A stretch of 33,308 bases of DNA, taken from contig JALGYA010000004.1 of the NCBI GenBank assembly GCA_029824475.1, positions 1 to 33,308 on the forward strand, read 5' to 3'. The stretch comes from Fimbriimonadia bacterium (GTDB lineage: Bacteria > Armatimonadota > Fimbriimonadia > Fimbriimonadales > Fimbriimonadaceae). Positions 8,178-32,951 of this stretch are shown piece by piece (positions within the stretch are counted from its first letter, which is position 1; each line of letters begins with the position of its first letter). The position numbers and the translations under genes are program-made. The notes under the pieces were generated by a model, which made no database searches, was not told where the DNA came from, and saw only the letters and a list, made by a program, of their open reading frames with translations.

Positions 8178-9416
8178 GTGAGGATGATGACGCGAGAAAA
8201 ACACCTCTCAACGCTCTATCCGCTTTTTCTGGGGCTCACGCTGGCCGGGTATCCGGTTATCAGCTCGCTCACGTCGATCGCCGGCATCGACAGCAGCGCC
8301 CCTGCGATCCTCTTCCGCTTCGTCATTTTGGCTGTTGCGGTCCTTGTTTTTTTCCAGCTTGATGGGGTGAAAGGGCGGCTCTACAAAGGCCAGACCTGGC
8401 TTCTGATTGGCGCGCTCTGGCTGATGCTCATCGCTCGGCTGACCTATGAAACCGGGTTTTCAGGTCAGGAATTCACTTACTCAACTACGCCCAGGCTCTG
8501 GATTTTTGCGCTGGGTGCGTGCCTCCTGCCGATGATCGCCACCGCCGTGATCCCGGATGAGGCGTGGATCCGCAAAGCGCACACCTGGGCGCTGCACGCG
8601 CTGATGTTCGCTGCGGTCTGCGCTCTTGGCGCTGCGCTGTTCTTTGCCCCGGTTGTCACTGGGTTTGCTGAGCGGGCCTCCACTGAGCGCCTCGCTCCGA
8701 TCCCGATGGGGCACCTTGGCGTAACGCTCTGCATCGTCTCCTTGTGGCCGCTGATGCTGAATCAGGCCTGGAGGGGCGGGGTGGCCAAGCTGCTGTTTGG
8801 GTTCTTCTTAGGGGCCGGTACGGTCATAGTCTCGGCCTCTCGTGGCCCGTTCGTGATCCTTGTTGTCGTGTGTCTGCTCATGGGAGCCGCAGGCATCCAT
8901 TTCAGAGGCCGCAAGATTCCAAAATGGACGATGGTTGGCGGGTCGATCATCTTTATCGGGGGCCCCCTTGTGGCCCTCCTGCTTGGTGCCAGGAGCGATT
9001 ACGCCCTGTTTGTCCGCCTGATGAACTCGGGGGCGATTGACGCCGAAGCCGGCGGTCGCGCGACACTCCTGCCCGACGCGTTTTCACAGTTCACCGCCAG
9101 CCCGCTTTTAGGCTCTGGGATGGTTGAAGTGAACACCCAGATGTACCCGCACAACTTCTATCTGGAGGCGTTTATGGCGACGGGAATCTTTGGCGGATTC
9201 ATCATGCTCGCGCTGGTCTTCATGGCGGCCCGCTGCGCCTGGCGGCTCCTCATCTGGAAGACCCCCGCCGGCTGGCTCGGGCTGATCTTCATCCAGTACA
9301 TGCTCTACGGCGCGATGTCGCTGTCGCTCTATTTGGAAGGCACCTTCTGGACGCTGATGGCGCTGATGTTCACGCTTGAATTCGCTGCCCGGCGTGATCG
9401 GCAAAAGACAAGCTGA
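8178..9416 (+). CDS. wzy: O-antigen polymerase/ligase-like membrane protein (Wzy/WaaL family)
   Basis: Predicted inner-membrane polymerase of lipid-linked repeat units, 412 residues with about 10-11 hydrophobic segments from LYPLFLGLTLAGYPVISSL to LGLIFIQYMLYGAMSLSLYL. It carries the loop signature of the PF04932-type family: SASRGPFVILVVVCLL and, after a periplasmic loop, HNFYLEAFMATGIFGG, whose H-N-x-x-L-E core is typical of WaaL/Wzy proteins. The start is GTG 8178, with ATG 8184 and 8187 as alternatives. It stands alone on the plus strand, divergent from wzz. Its stop codon TGA (9414-9416) overlaps the first bases of a family-B repeat (TGATTGG), so the C-terminus may have been set by repeat insertion. 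Polymerase rather than ligase is inferred from wzx and wzz next door. Confidence 0.82.
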   Translation: MRMMTREKHLSTLYPLFLGLTLAGYPVISSLTSIAGIDSSAPAILFRFVILAVAVLVFFQLDGVKGRLYKGQTWLLIGALWLMLIARLTYETGFSGQEFTYSTTPRLWIFALGACLLPMIATAVIPDEAWIRKAHTWALHALMFAAVCALGAALFFAPVVTGFAERASTERLAPIPMGHLGVTLCIVSLWPLMLNQAWRGGVAKLLFGFFLGAGTVIVSASRGPFVILVVVCLLMGAAGIHFRGRKIPKWTMVGGSIIFIGGPLVALLLGARSDYALFVRLMNSGAIDAEAGGRATLLPDAFSQFTASPLLGSGMVEVNTQMYPHNFYLEAFMATGIFGGFIMLALVFMAARCAWRLLIWKTPAGWLGLIFIQYMLYGAMSLSLYLEGTFWTLMALMFTLEFAARRDRQKTS

Positions 9417-9484
9417 TTGGAAGCCCCCTTCCTCCTAGCTTTGTAGGAGGAAGGGGGGTTGGGGGATGGAGGTTTCTCGGCGCC
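9415..9484 (+). repeat. Family B-type hairpin repeat, upstream copy flanking the DUF559 gene
   Basis: Begins GATTGGAAGCCCCC, forms a hairpin CCCCTTCCTCCT / AGGAGGAAGGGG around a short loop, then continues GTTGGGGGATGGAGGTTTCT. A very similar copy in the same orientation starts at 9910, so the DUF559 reading frame lies between direct repeats. The repeat overlaps the wzy stop codon. Confidence 0.85.
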
Positions 9485-9911
9485 CACCACTCAGCCTAGC
9501 TATACTGAGATCACAACGGAGAGGCCAAAGAGGAATCGAGCGAACAGAGACTTCGCCCGGAAGCTAAGGCGGGAGATGTCGATTTCGGAGAAAGTTATGT
9601 GGCAGCACCTGCGCCGAAAGGGGCTAGGGTTCAGTTTCCGCCGCCAATATCCTGTGGGTCGGTATGTGCTCGACTTCTACTGCCCAGAAGCAAGACTCTG
9701 CGTTGAAATAGACGGCGAGCAGCATGATGCTAGGCAGTGCAGAGACGCCGCAAGAGACGCTTGGCTCTTGGAGCAGGGTGTATTGACTCTGCGTCTGTCA
9801 AGCCTTGAACTCTTTGACCACGATACGGTGGTCGATGCGAAGTTCTTGGGGGAGATTCGCAGGGCTTGTGAGGAGAGATCTGGACGGAAGGATTTTGAAG
9901 CCGGAGGATGA
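9459..9911 (+). CDS. DUF559 (PD-(D/E)XK / Vsr-like) endonuclease-domain protein
   Basis: A 150-residue frame with the DUF559 pattern: an Arg-rich N-terminal helix (NRANRDFARKLRREM), SEKVMWQHLRRKGLGFSFRRQYPVGRYVLDF, then CVEIDGEQHD. The conserved acidic residues D72, E83, D85 and the following H89 match the catalytic core expected for this very-short-patch-repair-like nuclease family. Biological role is not established for the family. The start is uncertain. A TAG at 9444-9446 closes the frame upstream, and the only candidates are TTG 9459, inside the repeat, or ATG 9576, which would drop the first helix and give 111 residues. The stop TGA (9909-9911) overlaps the downstream repeat (TGATTGG). 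Thus both ends of the frame lie in flanking direct repeats. A second, broken homologue is at 32522-32898. Confidence 0.85.
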   Translation: MGDGGFSAPTTQPSYTEITTERPKRNRANRDFARKLRREMSISEKVMWQHLRRKGLGFSFRRQYPVGRYVLDFYCPEARLCVEIDGEQHDARQCRDAARDAWLLEQGVLTLRLSSLELFDHDTVVDAKFLGEIRRACEERSGRKDFEAGG

Positions 9912-10052
9912 TTGGAAGCCCCATTCCTCCTTGCTTGGAAGGAGGAAGGGGGTTGGGGGATGGAGGTTTCTCGGCGCGAACCACACGGCTGGCCCCAGAA
10001 CCTCCTCACCCTAGCCCTCTCCTCCTCTCAAACGAGGAGGAGAGGGAACCAA
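9910..10052 (+). repeat. Composite family B repeat, long form, downstream of DUF559 gene
   Basis: Starts as the 9415 copy (GATTGGAAGCCCC, hairpin, GGGGGATGGAGGTTTCTC), then continues through GAACCACACGGCTGGCCCCAG and ends with a second hairpin CTCTCCTCCTC / GAGGAGGAGAG and GGGAACCAATC. The whole 140-base unit is present in inverted orientation at 27143-27280. Its right end overlaps the stop codon of the minus-strand acyltransferase (10053-10055), again as TGATTGG read on that strand. Confidence 0.85.
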
Positions 10053-10559
10053 TCAACCCCGAAGCTTCTCAAGCCCAGCCCGGTGAACCGCCTCATCCTC
10101 AGGCGAAAACCGCTTTCTCAAAGGCTTCGCCGGGACCCCGGCGACGATGTCATACGCCGCAACATCCTTCGTCACAACAGCCCCCGAAGCCACCACCGCC
10201 CCTTCGCCGATCGTCACTCCGTGCATGATGATCGCGCCGTAGCCGATCCAGACGTCATCCTCGATCGTCACCAGCAGGTTCTTATCTCGTCCAGAGAGAA
10301 CCGAAGGAGTGCCGGGAACGTCGATCCTGTGGTCACCGCCAACCACCGCGACCCGCCCAGCCAGCATCACCCAGCGGCCGATATCAACCTGCGATGCAAG
10401 CCAGCACTCAGGCCCGATAAAGCTCGATTCGCCCAGCGAAACACAGCCCTTGCGCATGTGAACACGGCCCCCAATATACGCACCACGCCCAAGGCTTTTG
10501 AGTTTGAGTCTAAACGTCGTGAGGAGGGCCATCCGGAGGGCTTTCAGGGCTGATTTCAT
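10053..10559 (-). CDS. Left-handed beta-helix (hexapeptide) acyltransferase, WcaF/LacA-like
   Basis: Predicted cytoplasmic O- or N-acetyltransferase of 168 residues, acetyl-CoA dependent. Hexapeptide-repeat turns run through almost the whole protein (IGGRVHMRKGCVSLGESSFIG, VTIEDDVWIGYGAIIMHGVTIGEGAVVASGAVVTKDV), closing with the usual VAGVPAKPLRKRFSPED tail. The likely catalytic His is in VVGGDHRID. The length fits small sugar O-acetyltransferases of polysaccharide clusters. The substrate cannot be told from sequence. A TACGAT box lies about 18 bases before the ATG on the minus strand. The stop codon overlaps a repeat border. The glycosyltransferase at 10775-11992 is upstream on the same strand but separated by a 216-base gap filled with repeat, so a shared transcript is uncertain. 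Confidence 0.88.
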   Translation of the reverse strand: MKSALKALRMALLTTFRLKLKSLGRGAYIGGRVHMRKGCVSLGESSFIGPECWLASQVDIGRWVMLAGRVAVVGGDHRIDVPGTPSVLSGRDKNLLVTIEDDVWIGYGAIIMHGVTIGEGAVVASGAVVTKDVAAYDIVAGVPAKPLRKRFSPEDEAVHRAGLEKLRG

Positions 10560-10610: not shown

Positions 10611-10754
10611 GATTGGTTCCTCCCCCGCTTGGGGCGGGGGAGGCTAGGAGGGGGCTGCGAGCGGAGCGAGCGGTCTTATGGCCAGCCTCCAGCACCGGCT
10701 GAGAGCCGGCCCCCTCTCTAATCTCCCCCGCCCCAAGCCGGGGGAGAGGCCAGA
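10611..10754. repeat. Family B repeat, long form with the GCGAGCGG core
   Basis: Fills most of the gap 10560-10774. The left border is GATTGGTTCCTCCCCCGCTT and its hairpin partner GGGGCGGGGGAGG. The core reads CTGCGAGCGGAGCGAGCGG, then CCGGCTGAGAGCCGGCC. The right border is CTCCCCCGCC and GGGGGAGAGGCCAGA. The same core occurs at 16391-16606, 29467-29646 and 30731-30930. Confidence 0.85.
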
Positions 10755-12076: not shown

Positions 12077-12340
12077 TGGATTGGTCCCTTCCCCACGTAA
12101 GGTGGGAGAGGCCAGAAGAGACCTCCTTCACAACCGGAAGAGCACGGACAAACGCTGGGAGCGCCTGTCCATGGCACACGAGAGAAGCCAGATCCTTGAT
12201 TGGTCCCTCTCCCTCAAGTGAGGGGGAGGTTAGGAGGGGGACAGACAAATCTTGCGTCTTACGAATCAGCCAGCAGTAGGTTGAGGCTTCGCTTGCGGCC
12301 CCCTCCCTAACTTCGCAAGGAGAGGGAACCATAACCTCAC
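12077..12340. repeat. Repeat cluster: family B fragment, half family A element, family B long form
   Basis: Occupies most of the 448-base gap 12000-12447. First a short B hairpin (GATTGGTCCCTTCCCCAC / GTGGGAGAGG, 12077-12110), then a half family-A unit (12142-12179), then a B element from about 12197 (GATTGGTCCCTCTCCCTC) to 12336 (GGAGAGGGAACC) with an AT-richer core. Bases 12000-12076 probably hold the promoter of the minus-strand glycosyltransferase, though no clear box was found. The remaining 12341-12447 contains a CATAAT box. Confidence 0.85.
12142..12179 (-). repeat. Half family A element (single REP-like unit, copy A2)
   Basis: The right half only: GCACGGACAAACGCTG, a short stem AACGCTGGGAGCGCC, then CCTGTCCATGGCACAC. 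It still folds as a hairpin (GGACA/TGTCC). The partner half is absent upstream. An almost identical half element is at 23945-23982. Confidence 0.85.
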
Positions 12341-16390: not shown

Positions 16391-16606
16391 GATTGGTCCC
16401 TCCCCCACTTGGGGTGGGGGAGGTTAGGAGGGAGGGTCCGCCAAAGAAGCTGCCCAAAAGGCAGGTTCGACGTGGATTGCGAGCGGAGCGAGCGGTGTTT
16501 TGCCCACCGCAATCCCTGGACGTGAATTAGGCCACGCTTTGAGCTATTCCGGCTGAAAGCCGGCCCTCTCCTAGCCTCTCCCACCCTTCGTGGGAGAGGG
16601 ACCAGA
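16391..16606. repeat. Family B repeat, long form (216 bases)
   Basis: Fills the 302-base gap between the PglC-like and PglD-like genes. Left border GATTGGTCCCTCCCCCAC with hairpin partner GTGGGGGAGG; right border CTCTCCCACC / GTGGGAGAGGGACCAGA, so the ends are imperfect terminal inverted repeats. The core holds a segment at 16434-16475 shared with 32210-32252, then GCGAGCGGAGCGAGCGG and the CCGGCTGAAAGCCGG hairpin. Confidence 0.88.
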
Positions 16607-18693: not shown

Positions 18694-18880
18694 CTGGTTC
18701 CCACTGGTCAAGGGAGGAGAGCTGAGAGCCAGCGGTCTTGTCAATCTGGCCTCTCCCCCGGCTTGGGGTGGGGGAGATTAAGAGAGGGGGCCGGCCTTCG
18801 GCCGGAATATCTGGCAATCAACAAGACTGCTCGCTGTACTCGCAGCCCCTCCTACCCCCCTCATTCGAGGGAGAGGAATA
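18694..18880. repeat. Family B repeat upstream of wecB
   Basis: Mosaic of B segments: CTGGTTCCC at the left, then GGCCTCTCCCCCGGCTTGG with GGGGTGGGGGAGATTAAG, a CCGGCCTTCGGCCGG hairpin, and CCTCATTCGAGGGAGAGG at the right. Confidence 0.8.
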
Positions 18881-27142: not shown

Positions 27143-27318
27143 TTGGTTCCCTCCCCTCCTCGATTGAGAGGAGGGGAGGGTTAGGGCGGGGAGGTTCTGG
27201 GGCCAGCCACGCGGTTCGCGCCGAGAAACCTCCATCCCCCAGCCCCCTTCCTCCTTCAAAGCAAGGAGGAAGAGGGCTTCTAGCCTCTCCCCCGACATTC
27301 GCGGCTGAGGGACCAATA
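27143..27318. repeat. Composite family B repeat, inverted copy of 9910-10052
   Basis: The left part (27143-27280) is the reverse complement of the composite repeat next to the DUF559 gene, with high identity through TTCTGGGGCCAGCC and CGCGCCGAGAAACCTCCATC. It continues with CCTCTCCCCCGACATTCG and GGGACCAAT. Part of the 458-base gap 26994-27451, whose left end (26994-27115) is the subtilase 2 leader. Confidence 0.88.
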
Positions 27319-29466: not shown

Positions 29467-29646
29467 GGATTGGTCCCTCCCCCACTTGGGGTGGGGGAGG
29501 CTAGGAGCGGGCTGCGAGCGAAGCGAGCGGTCTTATCGCATACCGCCAGCACCGGCTGAAAGCCGGCCCCCTCTCAATCTCCCCCGCCCCAAGCCGGGGG
29601 AGAGGCCAGACAAGACCCTCCTCTCAAACGAGGGGGGGAGAAAACC
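29467..29646. repeat. Family B repeat, long form plus extra hairpin
   Basis: Left border GATTGGTCCCTCCCCCAC with partner GTGGGGGAGG, core CTGCGAGCGAAGCGAGCGG and CCGGCTGAAAGCCGG, right border CTCCCCCGCC / GGGGGAGAGGCCAGA, then an added CCTCCTCTC / GAGG hairpin. It fills most of the gap 29446-29690. A TACACT box at 29667-29672 lies between it and the epimerase. Confidence 0.88.
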
Positions 29647-29690
29647 AAATCCTCCACCCCAAGTGATACACTAGTCCGAGCAAGGGCGCT

Positions 29691-30730: not shown

Positions 30731-30930
30731 GATTGGTCCCTCCCCCGCGAATGGCGGGGGAGGATGTCCGAAGGACAGGAGGGGGCCGGCCCTTGGCCGG
30801 AACTCCAGAGGGCGATGCTAGTCATACGCCAAGAATTAGCGAAGCGAGCGGTCTTATCGCCCACCGCCAGCCCCGGCTGAAAGCCGGCCCCCTCTCAATC
30901 TCCCCCGCCCCAAGCCGGGGGAGAGGCCAG
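30731..30930. repeat. Family B repeat, long form with TGTCC hairpin variant
   Basis: Left border GATTGGTCCCTCCCCCGCG, then GGATGTCCGAAGGACAGG in place of GGCTAGG as at 23724-23880, a CCGGCCCTTGGCCGG hairpin, the core AGCGAAGCGAGCGG, CCGGCTGAAAGCCGG, and right border CTCCCCCGCC / GGGGGAGAGGCCAG. It fills most of the gap 30648-30951 and ends 21 bases before the next gene. Confidence 0.88.
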
Positions 30931-32169: not shown

Positions 32170-32470
32170 CTGAAAGCCCCCTTTCTCCTCGTTTGAGAGG
32201 AGGAAGGGGAGGGTCCGCCAAAGAAGGCTGCCATAAGCAGCGTTCGACGTGGAAAGGGGATGGAGGTTCTTAGGATTCGCTTCTGGTCCCTCTCCCTCGA
32301 ACGAGGGGGAGGCTAGGAGGGGGACCAATCATTAAGTCTGTGCTCGAAGAATGAGAGCACTGTCCTGACCTTGGACTCCTCTTGCTTTCCTGCAAAAAAC
32401 GCAGCCACTCGAGCAAGGCCCCCTCTCTTAATCTCCCCCTCTCGCTCCGCTCGAAGGAGAGAGGCCAGAA
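32170..32470. repeat. Family B repeat cluster before the second DUF559 gene
   Basis: Three B units in a row. A hairpin CCCCTTTCTCCTC / GAGGAGGAAGGGG (about 32178-32209) is followed by a segment shared with 16434-16475. GGTCCCTCTCCCTCGAACG and GGGGGAGGCTAGGAGGGGG then lead to the 34-base module at 32342-32375. CTCCCCCTCTCGCTCCGCTC and GAGAGGCCAGA close the cluster. It fills most of the 355-base gap 32167-32521; 32471-32521 is the leader of the DUF559 pseudogene. Confidence 0.85.
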
Positions 32471-32521
32471 TGGAGCGAATAAAGTACTCTCGTTCTGTTT
32501 AGGAAATAAAGGAGGAGACAA

Positions 32522-32898
32522 GTGCCACGTCAATATCAATCGGCGACGAATAGAGCCCGGAAGCTGAGGCAGACACACACCAATACCGAATCGAAAGTTT
32601 GGTCAAGGATCAGGCGCGGCCAGATCGGATTTCACTTTGCAGACAGCATCCGATCGAGCGTTACGTGCTCGATTTCTACTGTCCTGAGGCGAAGCTTTGT
32701 GTTGAGCTGGACGGAGACATTCACGCTGATCGGACAGACAAGGACCAGGCGCGAGACGAGGCCCTGGACTCTCAAGGCATCACCGTGATGCGGGTGCATT
32801 CGCAGCACGCTTGGCACAACTTGGATCAGGCTGTTGAGGAGATCTTGGCGACATGCATCGAGCTGACCGGACGCGATCCGTTTCCTGCCCCCGATTAG
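32522..32898 (+). pseudogene. DUF559 endonuclease-like gene broken by a one-base deletion
   Basis: GTG 32522 has an excellent Shine-Dalgarno sequence (AAAGGAGG, six bases upstream). The first 39 codons encode the Arg-rich N-terminus and KVWSRIRRGQIGFHF. Then the DUF559 sequence jumps to another frame: RQHPIERYVLDFYCPEAKL, CVELDGDIHADR, and the full C-terminal part to TAG at 32896-32898. One base is missing just after 32638 (expected Arg codon CGC before AGA), by alignment with RRQYPVGRYVLDF of the gene at 9459-9911. All catalytic residues (D, E-x-D) remain in the second frame. It is either a recent pseudogene, a sequencing or assembly error, or a programmed shift; no slippery heptamer is evident. 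Flanked by family B repeats on both sides. Confidence 0.88.
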
Positions 32899-32910: not shown

Positions 32911-32951
32911 GATTGGTCCCTCCCCCACCCCAAGTGGGGGAGGGACCAATC
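32911..32951. repeat. Minimal family B element: perfect 18-base hairpin
   Basis: GATTGGTCCCTCCCCCAC, a five-base loop CCCAA, then the exact complement. It is the simplest family B form: the left terminus joined directly to an inverted copy of itself, without a core. It lies between the DUF559 pseudogene and the convergent integrase and could terminate both. Confidence 0.9.

Follow-up and report, generated by a model that had tools for sequence, protein, structure and literature searches.

DUF559 nuclease genes bracketed by BoxC-type hairpin units: a candidate mobile system in Fimbriimonadaceae and other bacteria

A DUF559 gene lying between copies of one hairpin repeat raises the question of whether the encoded protein acts on such repeats, by analogy with RAYT proteins and REP sequences. 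The gene is located on contig JALGYA010000004.1 of a Fimbriimonadia bacterium (family Fimbriimonadaceae), and the whole 33,308 bp stretch that was analysed is referred to here as the window. DUF559 proteins are widespread. Repeats of the BoxC/PIT class were already described in E. coli in the 1990s; they are found in many bacteria and have been linked to genome variability, and to our knowledge they have no assigned gene. A literature search identified nothing tying DUF559, COG2852 or ycjD to repeats. The principal features of the window are as follows.

9415..9482, forward strand: left hairpin unit of triplex type, with GATTGG at its outer end and arms CCCCCTTCCTCC, GGAGGAAGGGGG and GGGGGATGGAGG
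9459..9911, forward strand: DUF559 gene for a predicted Vsr/homing-type nuclease, 150 amino acids counted from TTG 9459 (PF04480, E=2.4e-29)
9910..9976, forward strand: second left-type unit, the first half of a complete gene-less pair, overlapping the stop of the DUF559 gene
9997..10054, reverse strand: inverted, right-type unit that completes the pair begun at 9910, with CCAATC at its outer end
27143..27280, reverse strand: gene-less paired element, the 'empty' form, consisting of a right unit (27143-27198) and a left unit (27219-27280)
about 32520..32898, forward strand: another DUF559 gene, disrupted by a frameshift and sister to the C145 gene; units of the other subtype lie upstream of it
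32911..32951, no strand assigned: perfect palindromic unit GATTGG...CCAATC, immediately 3' of the second DUF559 gene

Further units, belonging to two subtypes, were observed at 10611-10749, 12079-12111, 16391-16604, 18747-18808, 29468-29648, 30731-30926 and 32171-32209, and the density of units in this 33-kb window is unusually high.

The sequence-only reading had placed the gene between two direct repeats, and these were recovered at 9415-9482 and 9910-9976, 495 bp apart and 93% identical over 68 bases. It was also correct that the frame is closed inside the left hairpin, by the TAG at 9444-9446, and that the stop codon, TGA 9909-9911, shares the first bases of the right-hand copy. The proposed start, TTG 9459, is the sole ATG, GTG or TTG upstream of helix 1 and is internal to the repeat, but it is less certain than had been claimed; the true start is uncertain because ATC 9510, perhaps an unusual start codon or a former one, sits at a possible start-codon position. 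The sequence-only reading had overlooked two features, the inverted partner at 9997-10054 that makes the right-hand copy half of a pair, and the frameshifted DUF559 gene near the end of the window. The sister gene at L145 starts with TTG at the same repeat-internal position, and the DUF559 copy on contig C329 of the same genome has no ATG, GTG or TTG start before the domain.

A unit is built of a pyrimidine arm, a purine arm complementary to it and a third arm mirroring the purine arm, in this order. In the left unit at 9415-9482 the complementary arm GGAGGAAGGGGG pairs with CCCCCTTCCTCC, and the third arm GGGGGATGGAGG is an 11/12 mirror. As this is the layout of BoxC (PIT, TMECO; PMC4666352), the window repeats are read, from their sequence, as BoxC/PIT-type triplex units and not as ordinary REPs. 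The unit at 9910-9976 misses the exact 8-mer core of the strict triplex-motif detector described below.

The paired element at 9910-10054 is composed of GATTGG, a left unit, a spacer of ~20 bases, an inverted right unit and CCAATC. Among loci of the same genome, 24 left-right pairings were found, mostly gene-less with spacers of 12-30 bases, some having further units nested in the spacer; in the pairing on C329 the spacer is a DUF559 gene, giving an element of 567 bp vs 131-145 bp in empty pairs. At C329, L131, L134 and elsewhere the gene lies between two dispersed palindromes in inverted orientation; the outer ends read GATTGG in the window genome and CTCCCC in genomes G056 and G057, and copies lacking the gene are sharp-ended units, either solo or paired. 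The cargo-bearing form had been expected to consist of two direct copies; it is instead an inverted pair enclosing the gene (C329; L131/L134). A direct-repeat transposon was ruled out, the empty form being an inverted pair, and the direct repeat in the window consists of a single unit-gene copy lying next to an empty pair. In six loci of the window genome (L019, L021, L024, L026, L030 and L031) units of one subtype are apparently inserted in the pair spacer of another, and at L306 (G057:C190) a different triplex-type unit is nested between two inverted CTCCCC-type units; nested units of the kind found in the window genome may be of use for dating insertions.

The window protein scored 101.8 bits against PF04480 (curated cut-off 20.6). 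In the profile search it matched only PF04480 and, weakly, MTES_1575 (REase), and no PF01797 Y1 HUH tyrosine transposase domain was found. The putative active-site residues E44, D72, E83, D85 and H89 are present in the window protein and invariant across the 22-protein alignment A5. The closest PDB structure to the AF2 model (pLDDT 80.6) is 3hrl, a DUF559 structure from N. gonorrhoeae, followed by the catalytic domain of the homing endonuclease I-Bth0305I and then by Vsr; TM-scores (of target) were 0.81 for 3r3p_A and 0.54 for 1vsr. The DUF559 protein is predicted to be a nuclease of the PD-(D/E)XK type, with a single domain and the fold of Vsr and I-Bth0305I. Frameshifts or decay affect several of the DUF559 copies.

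All four DUF559 genes of the window genome lie among GATTGG...CCAATC hairpins. Across the family, homologous repeats were present on both sides at 57/83 DUF559 loci, using a flank-to-flank matching threshold of 20 where random pairs from the same locus usually scored 14 or less. In the sequence-only reading, flanking repeats missing from DUF559 genes more often than from other genes would have counted against the idea; the comparison favoured the association. With the strict detector, a unit within 300 bases was found beside 47/82 DUF559 genes and beside 19/459 other ORFs of at least 200 aa in the same loci (p about 5e-30), and triplex-type units lay on both sides of 34/82 and 1/459 respectively. 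The 13-mer GATTGGAAGCCCC occurs six times in the genome and its reversed control not at all; the repeats bracketing DUF559 are not a product of chance, since this 13-mer count and flank matches far exceeding the same-locus controls agree. Triplex-type units were also found at 24/43 DUF559 genes vs 25/159 other genes in named Pseudomonadota loci, and at 6/10 vs 1/30 in loci of other phyla, and matching flanks occur in plasmid-collection records from Neisseria gonorrhoeae and Picosynechococcus. About 30% of the DUF559 genes of the family (e.g. L107, L113, L117, L118, L124 and L140) have no matching flanks, and some of these may be decayed, domesticated or members of a functionally different branch.

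RAYT loci served as a control. Flanking repeats were detected at 18 of 20, and as this is a known property of RAYTs, the flank test works; triplex-type units were found at none of the 20. Y1_Tnp genes were present in 20 of the 21 genomes examined. RAYTs were considered as the mobiliser and rejected: they occur in most genomes, yet their flanks never hold triplex-type units. Two repeat systems exist side by side in these genomes.

The similarity between units increases with the similarity between DUF559 proteins, with Spearman coefficients of 0.33 between genomes and 0.48 inside one genome. After removal of orthologues with >80% identity, the Mantel test gave p=0.001 for different genera and p=0.001 for the same genome. 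Distant DUF559 genes in one genome have different units, the subtype at C145 and C161:32629 of the window genome differing from that of the gene at 9459-9911. The unit sequence tracks the DUF559 clade and not the host genome. The window unit is present in 5/85 family genomes, among them G029, which holds sister genes.

Movement of the gene together with its units was examined in the sister species G056 and G057. At L131 and L134 these share a block of 461 bp, ACTCCCCCTCTCC...unit, gene, inverted unit...GGAGAGGGGGAGT, with 84% identity, located in unrelated intergenic surroundings, and the homology ends exactly at the inverted units. As the same block occupies unrelated sites and ends at its units, the unit-gene-unit block has relocated. 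At the L131 site the sister species G057 lacks the block and has a different gene-less hairpin element; at the L134 site G056 contains a decayed copy split by an IS. A further copy, in G057 and split between two contigs (C185/C118), is missing in G056, whose matching site holds an unrelated gene. Solo 43-base units with sharp ends are scattered in both genomes. In the search for empty sites, also proposed beforehand, gene-less forms were found, but at the three G056/G057 sites there was no clean empty site with a target duplication, these polymorphic sites being too diverged for a target duplication to be read.

Genera with DUF559 contain a median of 13 units vs 1.5 in genera without (p=3.5e-4), and DUF559 copy number reaches 11 per genome. 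Abundance of the repeats in genomes without a DUF559 gene had been named as evidence against the idea, and was encountered in part: 96 units in G063 (97% complete) and 61 in G051 (77% complete), with no gene detectable, although congeners of these genomes have DUF559. The G063 congeners G061 and G062 have one DUF559 gene each. G063 looks like a recent loss of the gene.

The E. coli protein YcjD is a member of the DUF559 family. Its gene was present in 3365/5426 complete E. coli genomes, with a stop codon inside a decayed BoxC and an intact BoxC about 160 bases further downstream; BoxC was found on the downstream side only. Among 60 records sampled across the ranking, those with ycjD contained 10-27 BoxC places (median 18) vs 1-17 (median 3) in those without. 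The gene is confined to phylogroups A, B1 and C and two other lineages, the eef operon taking its place elsewhere (PMC12817139), and because few independent lineages are involved, phylogeny confounds the link between ycjD and BoxC number, which is supportive and not decisive. In MG1655, 23 BoxC copies with five inverted pairs have been described, with high variability around BoxC sites, although the authors found no mobility function near them; triplex formation in vitro has been shown for E. coli BoxC oligonucleotides only (PMC4666352). Two intergenic regions, tauD-hemB and lptG-yjgR, have BoxC in some strains and not in others, but were rejected as polymorphic BoxC sites, the whole intergenic stretch being replaced. 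A near-perfect AT-rich palindrome, TCACCTCATTCTGACA...TGTCAGAATGAGGTGA, was observed upstream at the start of ycjD in E. coli (L262 and L307).

The explanation that we favour, with a probability of about 0.62, is that the DUF559 gene and the hairpin units form one mobile system in which the nuclease spreads its own units. The DUF559 protein would recognise the hairpin unit of its own clade and nick or cut at it, probably while this unit is in an extruded or single-stranded state, and copying across the cut would spread the unit; we infer both the cutting and its role as the driver of copying. The autonomous form would be unit-gene-inverted unit, and its non-autonomous derivatives would be the gene-less pairs, of about 140 bp, and the solo units, which measure 43-70 bp, as REPINs and REPs are to RAYT. 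The proposal that DUF559 stands to these repeats as RAYT to REP receives strong support from the enrichment, the match between units and clades, the occurrence of copies at different sites and the E. coli copy-number link, although the repeats are of BoxC/PIT type and not REPs, and spread or excision by the protein is a conjecture drawn from these patterns.

The main rival is homing, in which another agent spread the repeats, the DUF559 nuclease cuts existing pairs and the gene is copied into the spacer by gene conversion with the repeats as homology. The resemblance of the fold to the I-Bth0305I homing endonuclease, the gene in the spacer of the C329 pair and the match of local repeats to others across the genome are all in keeping with it, but the correspondence between unit and DUF559 clade inside one genome and the higher unit numbers in DUF559 genera are left unexplained, and the sister-species block moves with its own units into sites without them. 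We consider homing unlikely. Still less probable is that an unrelated transposase, or RecA recombination between repeats, mobilises or duplicates the units, with the DUF559 gene as a mere passenger. Further repeat systems, and Y1_Tnp genes among them, do exist in these genomes (20/21), and recombination between units could account for the direct duplication of 495 bp in the window, but DUF559 is the linked gene in every phylum examined, RAYT genes have none of these units, and unit type tracks DUF559 sequence. It is more doubtful again that DUF559 serves in repair, as a structure-specific or Vsr-like nuclease which clears triplex or mismatch structures and is kept beside the repeats as a remedy. 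The Vsr-like fold, the phenotype of Caulobacter VsrA, a DUF559 protein interpreted as a mismatch-repair enzyme (PMC12907096), and the raised variability around E. coli BoxC sites (PMC4666352) would suit such a role, but an enzyme with this role would have no need to lie between repeats, reach 11 copies per genome or relocate as a unit-gene-unit block. That GC-rich terminator hairpins gather in any intergenic gap, making genes of this size look bracketed, is hardly credible: the units are intergenic and GC-rich, but other ORFs in the same loci have a unit on either side in 4% and on both sides in 0.2% of cases, flank-to-flank identity is far above controls, and this reading is refuted by flank matching, unit enrichment and the RAYT control (0/20).

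As the gene lies between units here and in many bacteria, DUF559 is a strong candidate for the enzyme spreading BoxC/PIT-class repeats. We would give even odds to the broader proposal of a separate class of mobile element, occurring in several phyla, whose triplex-forming hairpins are spread by a Vsr/homing-type nuclease and not by a transposase, with YcjD and BoxC as its laboratory member. The link offers a testable role for both in K-12, which has ycjD and about 20 BoxC copies.

The system can be compared with several that are known. It resembles IS elements and MITEs in having autonomous and non-autonomous forms with common terminal inverted repeats, but differs from IS elements in that it has no transposase and a total length of about 460-640 bp; at the diverged polymorphic sites no target duplication could be read. 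The fold is common to Vsr and the EDxHD homing endonucleases (I-Bth0305I), but the DUF559 gene is a free-standing intergenic ORF and is not in a group I intron or intein, and its putative target is a dispersed repeat. The units share with BoxC/PIT/TMECO the pyrimidine arm, purine arm and mirror purine arm and the dispersed, intergenic distribution, sometimes as inverted pairs, while their sequence varies by clade; we know of no earlier case in which BoxC/PIT repeats were tied to a gene.

The likeness to RAYT/REP and REPINs extends to a gene between inverted hairpin units, dispersed solo and paired units, the match of unit type to gene clade, and gene-less short-spacer pairs which resemble REPINs. 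However, the enzyme is an unrelated predicted PD-(D/E)XK nuclease and not a Y1 HUH transposase (TnpA-REP), and the units have a mirror third arm and other outer ends. REP palindromes have a GTAG or CGTC tag at one end (PMC3733652), which was not found at the outer ends of the units (GATTGG in the window genome; CTCCCC in G056/G057). RAYTs have been described as single-copy and not self-mobilising (PMC3116915), whereas the DUF559 gene can occur in several copies and can relocate. Since it lacks the transposase domain and the tag sequences, the DUF559 system is not a member of RAYT/REP, though alike in working; by analogy, it would be a system that resembles RAYT/REP but uses a Vsr/homing-type nuclease. 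If this is true, the design of a hairpin plus a dedicated nuclease arose with an unrelated enzyme, alongside RAYT/REP in the same genomes.
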